Source of the DNA: Gammaproteobacteria bacterium
GTDB taxonomy: Bacteria; Pseudomonadota; Gammaproteobacteria; JAKDMP01
Reading direction: 5' to 3'
Length of the DNA stretch: 38,627 nucleotides
Assembly: GCA_030452225.1 (NCBI GenBank)
Contig: JAKDMP010000004.1
Span: 1-38,627, forward strand
The position numbers were made by a program, and so were the translations under genes. Numbering within the stretch: position 1 is the stretch's first letter; each line of letters starts with the position of its first letter. A model generated the notes under the pieces. It had not been told where the DNA came from and did not search any database. It saw only the letters and a program-made list of their open reading frames with translations. Shown piece by piece: positions 31,357-37,328 of the stretch.

Positions 31357-34035
31357 CTATGACAATGTTTTCGCAATTCCGTCCCAGTTTTTGTCCTTGA
31401 TCATCACGAAGCGGCAACGTCCGCCGCTCAGTTCCTCCCACAACCCACCGATCAAGCGATCGTCTTCCGCGCTTGCCCAGCGATCCGCGCCTTTGTATTC
31501 GACCGCGAGCACTACACCGTTCGGTAGTTTGCACATGAAATCGGGCCAGAATTTGTCCGTGGCCTTTTGCAGGAAGAAGGAGCAAGCCGGCTTGCGGGCC
31601 AGGTTCCGTACCCAGAATTCGATTTTGCCTTTCTCCGCCAGATCGTCCAGTTGCCAGGCGCACTCGTATTCTTCGCGGCTGTCGAAGGCGCCGACCGTGC
31701 CGTAGTAATGGTGGCGGAAATTGCCGGGCCCGAAATGTCCGTCATAGGTTCTGTTGGGTGCGTAGCCGTACTGCGGGAAATCGAACGCCATGCCGTTCGC
31801 GCCCACCGTCACGTGCTCGTTTTTGTGGTCGCCGAACAGCGTGTCCTGATAGGCACGGTTGATGGCCTGATTCCGCAGTTCCCGGATGCGGTTGTCGAGG
31901 AGTCCGCGCAGCAGGAATTTGTCGCGGTTCAGTCGGGCGAGGTCGAAATCCTTGCGCAGCAGTTCCTGAAGCCAGGCGGCCACGAAGGCCCGCTTGCTTT
32001 CGTGCGTGGCCGTGATGTCCCGCAGATTGCGGCATAGCCATGCGGCCAGTTTAACTTCGTTCCAGTTTTCCGGCGGCGCGGACAAGTCAAGGTCTCGTTG
32101 CAACTCACGCATGAAATTGACCGTGACGGTGCCGCTTTCCTCGTCGGTGTCCAGTGCGCCGCCTTCGCCGATTTCCGCCCCGTGCAGACGCTTCAGTTGT
32201 TCGCTCGTGGGGGTCGCTTCATAGCCGGACAGCTCCCAAGGGTAATCCAGCACCTCGGGATCGTCGAACAGCGCGAGTTCGCCCTGAACGCGAAGACCCA
32301 TTTGCGGCACCTGAAACGGCAATCCAAGCTCTGCCGGTGTCTCGAAATGGCCTTGTTCGGCCTGCTTGCGGCTCAACTCCGCCGCTTGGGCAATCTGCTT
32401 TCGTGCCGGCTCGTCCTTGAGACTGGAGGCGATTGTCTTCTCTTCCGCTTCGTCCAGCGGACTCCCTACGACCAGAACGCGCTTGTCGGTGTCCCAACTG
32501 ATTTTGTCCGCGTATTGCTTCAATACCCGGGCGGTGGGCTTTTTCGGCAATTCGACGACGATCGGCTGGAAAGTGCCCCGTTGCACGATGCGCTCGAAGT
32601 CCATGCGATGCTGTTCCGGGCGCGTGGCCGACACGAATTCCGCGGCTTCGTGCCGCTCGAAGCCCGCGCCCTTGACGAGACTCTCGCGCAGGCTGTGGGC
32701 CGTGTCACGAAAGCTGGTTGACACGACAAAAGCATAGGATTGATTCAATGCCGTCGTATCGCGGCGCTTGGCATCGGGCTGGCGCAGGATGCGCCCGAGC
32801 AACTGCTCGACGGCGGTGGCCGAGTGGACTTCTGCCATGCTGACCAGCACATACGCCGACGGGCAATCCCAGCCTTCGGCGAGCGCGCGTTGCGTGATGA
32901 CGTACTTGACCGGACAGCGCTCGTCGGCAATTCCTTCCCTGTAATCCGCCGCAATCTTCTCCAACCCCTTTTCCTCGCCGGTCGCGATGACGATTTCTTC
33001 CGCCGGCACATTCTGGTTGTCGATCAATTCTTTTCGTACGTGTTCGACGTGCCGGGAATCCCGGTTGCGGGAACGTGGTTCCGCCTGAATCAACACCACC
33101 GGCCGTAGATACGGCGCCCCGCCGCGTTGCTCGGCCCGTGCCGCCTGTTGCAGTTGCTCGCGGCGATAGAGCGCGTTCGCCAGGCATTGGCGCCAGTTCG
33201 ACTCCGTTTCGAGCAGGATCGGCAGCTTGATCATCTCTTCTGCCTTCAGCTCTGCCGCCCATACGCTGTGGAGCACGTTGCTCGGCGTTTTTGTCGTGTC
33301 CGGTGTCGCCGTCAGTTCCATGATCCCGCTCGGGCGAAAGCGCGCAAGCGTGTCGAACGCAAGTTCCGTGCGGCTGTTATGTGCCTCGTCCACGATCACG
33401 AACGGACGGCGCAGGCGCAGCACATTGGCAAGCGAGCGCGGTACGACGCCATCGTCATCCTGCAACAACTCGTCGCGTTGCTCGCTTGTCAAGCCCTCGA
33501 AGTGCGACATCAGCGCACCATCCGATTCGTATACCTTGCGGATATCGGTATTGCCGACCTGAAACGCTTGCCGCGTACAGACGATTACGGTAGTACTGGT
33601 CTCAAGCGTCGCGCGCGTGACTGACTTGGCCTCGTCCAGATCGAGCACCGTCAACGGTCCGGCATCGCGCAGGGCCGCGTGGTAGGGATGCGAGCGATCC
33701 TTCAGCGCCCTGAGCGTCTGCTCGCGGATCGCGTTCGAGGGCGTGAGCCAGAGAATGACGCTGTGACTTTCCTGCAGCAACTCCTCGTTGACGATCGCCA
33801 CGCTTTTCGCGGCGAGCCAGGTCTTGCCGCCGCCGGTCGGCACACGCAGGCAGAAATACGGCATGTCCGGATCGAAACCATCAATGGAACGAAAGGAGCT
33901 GCCTTGCCCCCAAAGGTCAAGGGTAGTGTTGTAAAAAGCCTTGTCGGCGTTCTCGAGTGCATTGCACGCGGCAAGATACTTGCTCACCGAATCGAGCACC
34001 GCCTGCTGATACTGTTTAGGGACGAATGCGCTCAT
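31357..34035 (-). CDS. Type III restriction endonuclease subunit R-like DEAD/DEAH-box helicase-nuclease
   Basis: FCLRVPTGGGKTWLAAKSV (Walker A); VIVDEAHNSRTELAF; MELTATPDTT; QRALAEGWDCPSAYVLVSM; VEQLLGRILRQP; C-terminal DFMCKLPNGVVLAVEYKG resembling a PD-(D/E)XK-type core. Confidence 0.9.
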   Translation of the reverse strand: MSAFVPKQYQQAVLDSVSKYLAACNALENADKAFYNTTLDLWGQGSSFRSIDGFDPDMPYFCLRVPTGGGKTWLAAKSVAIVNEELLQESHSVILWLTPSNAIREQTLRALKDRSHPYHAALRDAGPLTVLDLDEAKSVTRATLETSTTVIVCTRQAFQVGNTDIRKVYESDGALMSHFEGLTSEQRDELLQDDDGVVPRSLANVLRLRRPFVIVDEAHNSRTELAFDTLARFRPSGIMELTATPDTTKTPSNVLHSVWAAELKAEEMIKLPILLETESNWRQCLANALYRREQLQQAARAEQRGGAPYLRPVVLIQAEPRSRNRDSRHVEHVRKELIDNQNVPAEEIVIATGEEKGLEKIAADYREGIADERCPVKYVITQRALAEGWDCPSAYVLVSMAEVHSATAVEQLLGRILRQPDAKRRDTTALNQSYAFVVSTSFRDTAHSLRESLVKGAGFERHEAAEFVSATRPEQHRMDFERIVQRGTFQPIVVELPKKPTARVLKQYADKISWDTDKRVLVVGSPLDEAEEKTIASSLKDEPARKQIAQAAELSRKQAEQGHFETPAELGLPFQVPQMGLRVQGELALFDDPEVLDYPWELSGYEATPTSEQLKRLHGAEIGEGGALDTDEESGTVTVNFMRELQRDLDLSAPPENWNEVKLAAWLCRNLRDITATHESKRAFVAAWLQELLRKDFDLARLNRDKFLLRGLLDNRIRELRNQAINRAYQDTLFGDHKNEHVTVGANGMAFDFPQYGYAPNRTYDGHFGPGNFRHHYYGTVGAFDSREEYECAWQLDDLAEKGKIEFWVRNLARKPACSFFLQKATDKFWPDFMCKLPNGVVLAVEYKGADRWASAEDDRLIGGLWEELSGGRCRFVMIKDKNWDGIAKTLS

Positions 34036-34238
34036 TCGTCTTCACCGTAATGGGCTTCCGGCTCGGCTATATCGTGACTCCGGGGGTCGAGGTAACGAAT
34101 GCGGCCTTGCTCGGAGACGATGAGCCTCGTGCCCGTTCGAATGGCCACTTCTCGAGCCCGCAACGCCGCACGTCGCAGGGCGGCAAGAGAGTGACGAAGG
34201 TCCGGATCCTCGGCCTCCGTGATGGGTTTGTTACTCAT
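34032..34238 (-). CDS. Small (68 aa) protein of unknown function between zeta-like kinase and res
   Basis: MSNKPITEAEDPDLRHSLAALRRAALRAREVAIRTGTRLIVSEQGRIRYLDP...; TGA overlaps res ATG by 4-nt ATGA, start overlaps kinase gene end by 8 nt. Confidence 0.7.
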   Translation of the reverse strand: MSNKPITEAEDPDLRHSLAALRRAALRAREVAIRTGTRLIVSEQGRIRYLDPRSHDIAEPEAHYGEDE

Positions 34239-34761
34239 GGCGAGTACTCCAGTCGATCGCTTCCGGCAGCCTTCCGGAGTTGTCATAAATGGCCCAATAA
34301 TCGACTATTGGTGTGTAGATCGTTTTCAGGTTTTTCCAACCTGCATGGAAGCGGCGGCGAATAACGGCTTCCGGGATGTCGTGGCCACCTTGCCGGACAC
34401 GCTCCGCGACTCGCGCAATAGCCTCTTCCGGGTTATTGAGTCGGAGAAAAAGCAGTTTGGCCTTGTAACCGGCGGCACGCCATTGTGGAATCAAACGAGC
34501 GTAACCGCGGCCGGCGAGCGTCGTCTCGAAGGCGAAACTCTCGCGTGCGGCAAAATGCCGACTGATTTCATTCAGCATCAACCGCCCCGCCTGAATGCCT
34601 TCCCTGTCCGCATCGAACGGCGAAATGCCGGCCGCAATCAGATCGGCGTTGATGAATACGGGGCACCCTGCCTCTTGCGGCAGGAATTCGTTTGCAAACG
34701 TGGTCTTGCCGGCTCCGTTTGGGCCGGCAATAATCAAAACGCGAAGATCGTCGGAAGTCAC
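34231..34761 (-). CDS. Zeta-toxin-like P-loop kinase/AAA protein (GTG start)
   Basis: VLIIAGPNGAGKTTFANEFLPQEAG (Walker A); VFINADLIAAGISPF; FAFETTLAGRGYARLIPQWRAAGYKAKLLFLRLNNPEEAIARVAERVRQGGHDIPEAVIRRRF. Confidence 0.85.
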   Translation of the reverse strand: MTSDDLRVLIIAGPNGAGKTTFANEFLPQEAGCPVFINADLIAAGISPFDADREGIQAGRLMLNEISRHFAARESFAFETTLAGRGYARLIPQWRAAGYKAKLLFLRLNNPEEAIARVAERVRQGGHDIPEAVIRRRFHAGWKNLKTIYTPIVDYWAIYDNSGRLPEAIDWSTRHE

Positions 34762-34762
34762 G

Positions 34763-36487
34763 TCAAATGTCCAGCGCGTAGGGGGTTTGCTTGAAGATGA
34801 CGCCTTCGCGCCGCAGGCGCGGGGCGCCGAGGCGGCAGGCGGCGGCGTAAATCACTTTCGGTCCGTCATGCGCCGGCAGCGATGCCAGTACCGGGCCGGT
34901 CAGGACATTGCCGCCGTTCACGGATTTGTCCTTGAGGATGCCGTTGTACAAGAGATACACCGCACGCCCTTCACAAACGCCAATCAACGGTGAATTAAAC
35001 GCCGTTCGTGCTGAGCGTAGCCGTCCTTTGGACGGCGAAGTCGAAGCGCGGGCCGGCAGTCCCGAGCCAGTCTCGACAAACCACACAAACTCCGCCAACT
35101 GCGCAAACGTGACATCCTCGCGCACCGAACCGTCCGCCGCGAACAACGGTTCGTCGGACAACTTGCAGAACTGGAAGCCGCCGCCAAGCCCTTCGACGGC
35201 TTGGCCCTTGCTGTTCGTGTAGCCCTGCGCCACCCGCCGCACGCGCTCGGCCGTCACGTCGCGGGCAATCTTCTCCTCCATCTCGACGAGTATGAATTTT
35301 CGGTTGCCGCCGTCCTCGACGTTCTGCTTCAGCACCGCGTGACCCGTCGTCCCGCTACCCGCGAAGCTGTCGAGAATCAATGAATGCTTTTCGCTTCCAA
35401 TTTGGAGGATGCGCTGGATCAGGCGAGTTGGCTTGGGTGTAATGAAAACATCGTTGGATGTCTGGAATGGAACGATTGACACAAGTTCCTTCTTGGCTTC
35501 CTGGGTATGCCCGACGTCGCCGTAGAACCACATTGTCTGCGGAACTACGCCCTGCTTCACCTCTGAAAGAAACCGCTTTAACTGTGGGATGGAGTTTCCA
35601 TTTTTTCCCCACCAAATCCTGTTGTCTTGGTCAAGCTCGTCAAATCTATTTTTTGAAATTGTCCAGTAACGTCCTCGTGGGGGGGCTTCGATGACGCGAC
35701 CGGCAGGGCAAGGGATCGAATATGTGCCTTCTCCGTAGAAGTTCCGAGCCGATAGATCACTCGTCTTCCACGGGCCGCGTGGATCATTGTCCCGGTTCAT
35801 ATATGCACGATCTTGCCCCTCGTTCCGCTGGATCAGATTCGGTGACCAAGCGTCCGCCCGATTTGCGTAGAGAACGACGTAATCATGATCTTCTGATAAG
35901 TGTCGTGCGGAATTTTTAGGCGAATACACCTTTTGCCAAAGAACCGTTGCAATGAAGTTCGTTTCTCCAAAAATTTCGTCCATCAACAGTCGCAGCTTTG
36001 CAACTTCGTTATCGTCTATGGAGATGAAGATTGCACCGTCTGATCGCAGGAATTGTTTGAGGAGTACGAGGCGCGGATACATCATGCACAGCCATTTGTC
36101 GTGGCGCGAAAGGTCTTCGCCTTCGCGACCGACGACTTCGTGGAGCCACTTGCGGATCTCCGGGCTGTTGACGTTGTCGTTGTACACCCAGCCTTCGTTA
36201 CCGGTGTTGTAGGGCGGGTCGATGTAGATGCACTTGACCTTGCCGGCGTAGCGGGGCAAGAGCGCCTTGAGCGCCAGCAGGTTGTCGCCCTGGACGATGA
36301 GGTTGCCGTCATGCGCGTCACGAACGCTCGGACCCTCACCCCCGGCCCCTCTCCCGGAGGGCGAGGGGAGCGCGTCTTCGGTTGGCGAGGAGAGCGACAA
36401 GCCCGGCACCGGCTCAAGTAAGCGGTAGGGAACGTCCTTGTGATGGGTGACGACGGCTTCTTTCCCGATCCAGTCCAGCGTGGGCAT
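34763..36487 (-). CDS. Type III-like site-specific DNA methyltransferase (adenine-N6, mod subunit)
   Basis: VKCIYIDPPYNTGNEGWVYNDNVNSPEIRKWL (motif IV DPPY); APPRGRYWTISKNRFDELDQDNRIWWGKNGNSIPQLKRFL; SLILDSFAGSGTTGHAVL (motif I); start chosen at MPTLDWIGKEAVVTHHKDVPYRLLE. Confidence 0.92.
   Translation of the reverse strand: MPTLDWIGKEAVVTHHKDVPYRLLEPVPGLSLSSPTEDALPSPSGRGAGGEGPSVRDAHDGNLIVQGDNLLALKALLPRYAGKVKCIYIDPPYNTGNEGWVYNDNVNSPEIRKWLHEVVGREGEDLSRHDKWLCMMYPRLVLLKQFLRSDGAIFISIDDNEVAKLRLLMDEIFGETNFIATVLWQKVYSPKNSARHLSEDHDYVVLYANRADAWSPNLIQRNEGQDRAYMNRDNDPRGPWKTSDLSARNFYGEGTYSIPCPAGRVIEAPPRGRYWTISKNRFDELDQDNRIWWGKNGNSIPQLKRFLSEVKQGVVPQTMWFYGDVGHTQEAKKELVSIVPFQTSNDVFITPKPTRLIQRILQIGSEKHSLILDSFAGSGTTGHAVLKQNVEDGGNRKFILVEMEEKIARDVTAERVRRVAQGYTNSKGQAVEGLGGGFQFCKLSDEPLFAADGSVREDVTFAQLAEFVWFVETGSGLPARASTSPSKGRLRSARTAFNSPLIGVCEGRAVYLLYNGILKDKSVNGGNVLTGPVLASLPAHDGPKVIYAAACRLGAPRLRREGVIFKQTPYALDI
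35003..35050. repeat. Second palindromic repeat embedded in frame in the mod C-terminal region
   Basis: CGTTCGTGCTGAGCGTAGCCGTCCTTTGGACGGCGAAGTCGAAGCGCG with perfect GCCGTCC-TTT-GGACGGC stem (35020-35036); encodes RASTSPSKGRLRSARTAF in Mod. Confidence 0.72.
36332..36372. repeat. REP-like palindromic repeat inserted in frame in the mod N-terminal region
   Basis: ACCCTCACCCCCGGCCCCTCTCCCGGAGGGCGAGGGGAG; palindromic CCCCTCTCCCGGAGGGCGAGGGG; encodes LPSPSGRGAGGEGPS in Mod. Confidence 0.8.
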
Positions 36488-36525: not shown

Positions 36526-37023
36526 TTACTTTAACGACTCGCGCAGGGTTTTCAGCGGCAGGCACAGGGTCAGTGTCTGATCCGGGAGTGGGATGAAGCC
36601 GTATTGCGCATAGTAGCGCGCAGCGGCTTCGTCCCTGGCGTCCACGAATAGGGCAACGATGCCGACCGATTCGGCCGCGGCGAGGCAACGGAGCATGGCG
36701 TCCACCATGAGCAGTCGGCCGAGTCCCTCGCGCTGGCGATTTTTCGCAATGGCGAGCCGCGCCAGTCGAGCGGCGGGAATCGTGCGGGGATATTTGCGTG
36801 CGATCCGTGACGGCAGTCGCTCAGCCTGTATCTCGCATACCGATAATGTGAAGAACCCGAGGATTTTGTCGGGTGCCGATGCATCCGTCAGCACGAAGCT
36901 GCGGGAAATGCCTTTGTCCGCGTGCTGACGCGCGGTTTCGCGGAGATAACGATTGAGCGCGGAAACGCCGCAATCGAAACCGGAGCGATCGTGATTCGGT
37001 GCAAGCGGCTCAATCCGCCGCAT
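36526..37023 (-). CDS. GNAT-family acetyltransferase, TacT/AtaT-like toxin
   Basis: FDCGVSALNRYLRETARQHADKGISRSFVLTD; RLARLAIAKNRQREGLGRLLMVDAMLRC; AARYYAQYGFIPLPDQTLTLCLPL; overlaps upstream DUF1778 gene by 14 nt. Confidence 0.92.
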   Translation of the reverse strand: MRRIEPLAPNHDRSGFDCGVSALNRYLRETARQHADKGISRSFVLTDASAPDKILGFFTLSVCEIQAERLPSRIARKYPRTIPAARLARLAIAKNRQREGLGRLLMVDAMLRCLAAAESVGIVALFVDARDEAAARYYAQYGFIPLPDQTLTLCLPLKTLRESLK

Positions 37024-37300
37024 CGGGAGCGGCTCGGCGATAGGCTTGGGCTGCGGCTCGAAGCTTGCGGTTGGCGTTCGGCGGTCGTTCCAGGGCCGCG
37101 AAGAAAGTTTCCGCGTCCTGTCGGGTGAGGCGGATCACGCTTTCGCGCTCGATGATGGCGTCGGCTTCCTTGAGCGCGGATTGAACGAGAAACTGGTTGA
37201 GCGTGGCGCCGGACAGATCGGCGGCTTGTTGCAGACGAGCACGAGTGGTTTTCGGAACCCGCGCCGTGACGCGTTCGTCCTTGGTGGCGGTGCTTGGCAT
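37010..37300 (-). CDS. DUF1778-family (ribbon-helix-helix) antitoxin, TacA-like
   Basis: DERVTARVPKTTRARLQQAADLSGATLNQFLVQSALKEADAIIERE; adjacent/overlapping GNAT toxin; alternative GTG start at 37309. Confidence 0.9.
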   Translation of the reverse strand: MPSTATKDERVTARVPKTTRARLQQAADLSGATLNQFLVQSALKEADAIIERESVIRLTRQDAETFFAALERPPNANRKLRAAAQAYRRAAPDAAD

Positions 37301-37328
37301 GATGGTCACGTCCAGGGAATTTCATCGA

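Follow-up and report, generated by a model that had tools for sequence, protein, structure and literature searches.

The classic case of repeats within coding sequence is that of the Rickettsia palindromic elements (RPE), which lie in frame within numerous unrelated protein genes and are tolerated there at surface positions. In type III restriction-modification systems, the phase-variable mod genes modA, modB and modD carry simple tandem tracts that shift the reading frame (PMC2667262). In-frame intragenic REPs of the GTAG and CGTC super-families, many of which reside in genes for DNA repair such as uvrA and recBCD, have been described in a study that also discusses RPE; these REPs often occur as dimers or in groups, and a similar site in recB is occupied in two Xanthomonas species (PMC3733652). 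The words restriction and methyltransferase are absent from the main text of that study. The in-frame capture of repeats is a known, if little-noticed, route of protein growth. In the limited library available to us no paper was found that combines type III restriction with intragenic palindromes, and judged by titles and abstracts the matches listed for the string CCCTCACCCC, with which the repeat described here begins, included none on bacterial repeats. To judge from this limited searchable literature, the new part of the present work is a repeat family inside genes, which we call T1, and a recurrent hotspot of repeats in the type III methyltransferase Mod.

The window, i.e. the whole stretch of 38,627 nucleotides that was analysed, belongs to a gammaproteobacterial draft genome and, as read from reading frames and gene order, apparently contains an intact type III restriction-modification operon. 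Its mod gene (34763-36487, minus strand, ATG start at 36487) encodes a type III DNA methyltransferase of 574 aa, which matches Pfam N6_N4_Mtase and PADLOC MTase_III (4e-214) and has solved relatives in EcoP15I Mod and 6k0w. Next in the operon come an AAA/zeta-toxin-like ORF in the interval between mod and res (34231-34761, minus strand; Pfam Zeta_toxin and AAA_33, no PADLOC match), an ORF of 84 aa and finally res (31357-34035, minus strand), whose product of 892 aa is identified as the type III restriction subunit by Pfam ResIII and PADLOC REase_III (3e-116). Pfam, PADLOC and the solved relatives thus agree on a type III methyltransferase adjoining a type III Res, the arrangement by which a type III Mod is recognised. 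Directly upstream of mod, at 36526-37309, a GNAT acetyltransferase is paired with a TacA-type antitoxin, likely a toxin-antitoxin module.

The initial annotation had reported a REP-like repeat within mod that leaves the frame unbroken, and the quoted repeat is indeed found exactly at 36333-36370 on the plus strand, its minus-strand reading being in frame within mod as part of SSPTEDALPSPSGRGAGGEGPSVRDAH. The T1 element proper (36333-36368, plus strand) consists of the 5' tail CCCTCACCCC and the imperfect palindrome CCCCTCTCCC-GGA-GGGCGAGGGG, in keeping with the REP-like family pattern, in which CCCTCACCCC-N-CCCTCTCCC is combined with an imperfect inverted arm. Position 36333 is the sole T1 site across the whole window, res included. 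Read in the direction of mod, CTCTCCTCGCC (36373-36391, minus strand) comes before the full element; on inspection it resembles the degenerate start of another copy and may be a partial second T1. Alignment with homologues delimits an insert of residues 33-59 (insert A; 36311-36391, minus strand), which adds a net 23 codons to Mod as compared to close homologues: the block is absent from the closest of 80 fetched homologues (79% identity and below), and the Mod with 79% identity (L002) has the short linker EPVPELSCGEADSGNL. Judged from homologues no closer than this, T1 would have entered mod by an insertion event; no target duplication is visible. The same peptide inherited by descent and encoded without the repeat DNA, which would mark the block as native coding sequence, was not found among the homologues examined. 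The Mod of Tepidicella xavieri (L018) contains a similar peptide, PSPAGKGAGGEG, which is likewise built from T1-like DNA. Shared descent of the two inserts was considered because both proteins read LSL at the junction, but was rejected since plain Mods intervene on the tree; recombination may still account for the likeness. The stem of the window copy spans 10 positions with one mismatch, many other T1 copies being perfect in their arms. The folding energy of the window copy is no better than that of shuffled DNA (z -0.4 to -0.8), and the case for T1 therefore rests on the repeat family and not on hairpin energy. Rfam has no match at the site.

The count in the remainder of the genome bears out the dispersed nature of the repeat: the gapped core of T1 occurs in 17 exact copies in the 2.3 Mb draft genome, as opposed to none for a reversed-pattern control. 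Searches with ungapped patterns, at up to three mismatches, had matched the window copy alone, and the notion of T1 as a singleton was dropped with the gapped pattern; the ungapped search missed the other 16 copies because their core is 2 nt shorter (21 nt as compared to 23 nt in the window). The elements measure 33-42 nt; 16 copies have five of their six frames open and the remaining one has four, which helps to explain why genes stay readable after capture. What is not supported, for this genome, is the assignment of the repeat to the intergenic type. Ten of the 17 copies in this genome lie within open frames of recognisable genes (identified by Pfam matches on long open frames through the copies), and of these seven genes, mod included, five act on DNA. 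Besides mod, the latter are the genes for HsdM (L129), for UvrA (L130, where a contig end cuts the gene and 22 codons are seen before the repeat), for Mfd, with two copies in frame (L137), and for RecD (L139); a DUF559 protein carries one more copy at its C-terminal tail. The genes mod, hsdM and mfd can be added to the DNA-acting genes known to contain such repeats. T1 resembles the intragenic GTAG and CGTC REPs in that it is short and, imperfectly in the window copy, palindromic, that it lies in frame, and that most of its recognised host genes in this genome act on DNA. However, inspection of the 17 aligned copies reveals no GTAG or CGTC tag at their ends. With RPE and intragenic REPs T1 also shares its dispersal in multiple copies and its presence in frame in a protein gene whose homologues lack it, yet it differs from RPE, a lineage-specific family, in sequence and host range.

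A second repeat, T2, which the initial annotation does not list, is unrelated to T1 and lies near the C-terminus of the same gene. It forms insert C (35002-35049, minus strand), a stretch of 48 nt that contributes a net 16 extra residues around 481-496, as defined by homologue alignment and genome copies. T2 too was at first taken for a singleton, until a relaxed search gave two further copies in this genome; four other genomes of the class yielded none. In an AlphaFold model of Mod built with 42 sequences (mean pLDDT 82), the pLDDT falls below 50 at residues 38-58 of insert A and 481-495 of insert C and otherwise only at 94-108, at 118-129 and at both ends, so that both inserts are predicted to be disordered. 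The earlier proposal that T1 sits in a linker that precedes the methyltransferase core is supported by this prediction and by the close homologues that do without the peptide.

Repeats in Mod are not peculiar to this genome. Across the 84 Mod homologues compared, which come from many phyla, three loops repeatedly harbour repeats, and these are of several unrelated kinds; the loops are termed site A (after residue 32), site B (about residue 427) and site C (about residue 480). The fewest changes on the tree number 5 for site A, 3 for site B, 10 for site C and 8 for any T1-type insert, the insert-bearing Mods being scattered. Repeats of the T1 type are present in the Mods L017, L018, L029, L034, L052, L060, L068 and L086. 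In a Halothiobacillus Mod (L017:5077-5556), six exact T1 cores lie within a 143-aa insert at site C. At the same site L034 has two repeats of the form ATTCCCGC...GCGGGAATGACG, of which one encodes SRLRGND; L033 and L059 contain repeats of the type CCCCCC...AAAGGGGGG, and L052 carries a GACCCGACAGGTCT palindrome at site A. Of 20 repeat-like inserts that were scored, all picked by the analyst, 11 reached a stem score of 9 or more, as compared to 1.8% of random 90-nt mod windows. Unrelated repeat families thus use the same three Mod loops in different phyla, which sets these inserts apart from the GTAG and CGTC REPs and amounts to a natural map of where type III methyltransferases tolerate insertions.

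The exact T1 sequence occurs in 12 copies, in 6 genes, over 130 kb of homologous mod sequence and in none over 561 kb of flanks, a comparison of mod with its own flanks rather than with other loop-rich proteins. The genomes whose Mods hold T1-type inserts possess 2 to 126 T1 copies each. From such genome counts 0.21 mod hits would be expected as opposed to the 6 genes observed (P about 1e-7); this expectation rests on 676 copies outside the present genome, leaves out 15 homologue genomes, mostly of Bacteroidota, assumes uniform insertion, which may not hold, and concerns loci chosen by similarity to a repeat-bearing Mod. A phylum sample of 399 genomes contained few close Mods and yields no unbiased rate.

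Taken together, we consider it highly probable (roughly 0.8) that T1 is a dispersed REP-like repeat captured in frame in the linker of mod, that T2 was captured likewise, and that such captures are recurrent in Mods. A copy of the T1 family would have entered mod with the frame left intact and would have been kept because it falls into the flexible linker that connects the N-terminal segment to the methyltransferase core; a C-terminal loop would have captured T2 likewise. Most likely, repeats insert widely and the survivors are those of a net length divisible by three and with a stop-free frame that happen to lie in loops. A betaproteobacterial mod (L016:4001-4300), in which a site A insert with several short palindromes breaks the frame, exemplifies the failed outcome. 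The inserts would be nearly neutral for the enzyme, Mod presumably continuing to function, and insertion would be brought about in trans, by a Y1/RAYT transposase or by template switching. T1 shares with the RAYT-associated REPs that it is short, dispersed and imperfectly palindromic, and genes for Y1-type transposases are present in most T1-bearing genomes, the present one having three PF01797 matches, two of them over the cut-off. Then again, unlike for RAYT-associated REPs, at least one T1 genome (G095), with nine copies, has no PF01797 match. If this reading is correct, a defence enzyme has repeatedly gained new peptide from dispersed palindromic repeats.

But were the repeats captured where they are now found? 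They may instead have been captured in another repeat-rich lineage, and mod may have arrived by horizontal transfer with the repeats in place, so that the local T1 copies were not their source. We regard this as a possibility to be taken seriously, even if we do not favour it. The 23-nt core of the window copy, as compared to the 21-nt cores of the 16 local ones, suggests that its source may lie outside this genome, and cores of 23 nt are common in other genomes, for example G097-G099 and G122. The mixing of phyla on the Mod tree is also in line with transfer, and a genome of the same family (G001) has no Mod match at E 1e-50. However, both T1 and T2 are resident in the present genome, and the failure to find T2 in the four other genomes of the class likewise speaks against transfer.

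A different question is whether the inserts are put to use, be it that they lengthen and diversify Mod or that they serve as substrates of recombination or slippage for switching, like the tandem tracts of phase-variable mod genes. The strong recurrence at the same Mod loops, with none in the flanks, would fit such a role, and the six T1 copies within the 143-aa stretch of the Halothiobacillus Mod could expand or contract; changes in their number could be frame-neutral or could switch mod. In both the window mod and the phase-variable genes repeats are found within the coding sequence of a type III mod, yet the dispersed palindromes of the former keep the frame. Speaking against such a use, the inserts vary in sequence, orientation and length, most Mods do well without any, and no switching was seen. 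T1 is also present in many unrelated genes: in other genomes it lies in the frames of a UvrD-type helicase, HsdR, NadA, TatD and a menaquinone-biosynthesis protein, so that Mod is one target among many. We therefore think it unlikely that the inserts are used, and we are similarly doubtful of the wider proposition that a cross-phylum hotspot in Mod preferentially captures unrelated repeats and that the captures diversify or switch the methyltransferase, beyond mere tolerance. The captures in the Mod loops are countable and lend themselves to testing whether an intragenic repeat is neutral or of use. Finally, that insert A is native ancestral coding sequence resembling a repeat by chance, as might be imagined for a Pro/Gly/Ser-rich linker in a GC-rich gene, is hardly credible given that the T1 core is common to 16 other loci of the genome while the control matches none, that the block is absent from homologues, and that dinucleotide shuffles of the window yielded no match to the 23-nt core even at three mismatches.

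The two remaining host frames of T1 in the present genome each combine two products. One, of 842 codons (L127:154-2679), joins a multicopper oxidase and CopB (copA/B), with T1 inside the oxidase part, and is a possible gene fusion. The other (L131:2-3019) comprises hydantoinase A and B and contains three T1 copies in a stretch that extends between and within the domains, one copy lying between the two; repeats may here have joined the two hydantoinase genes. In a Gallionella genome, whose Mod has inserts at all three sites A, B and C, T1 is also found in frame within a type I HsdR (L121:1-2655).
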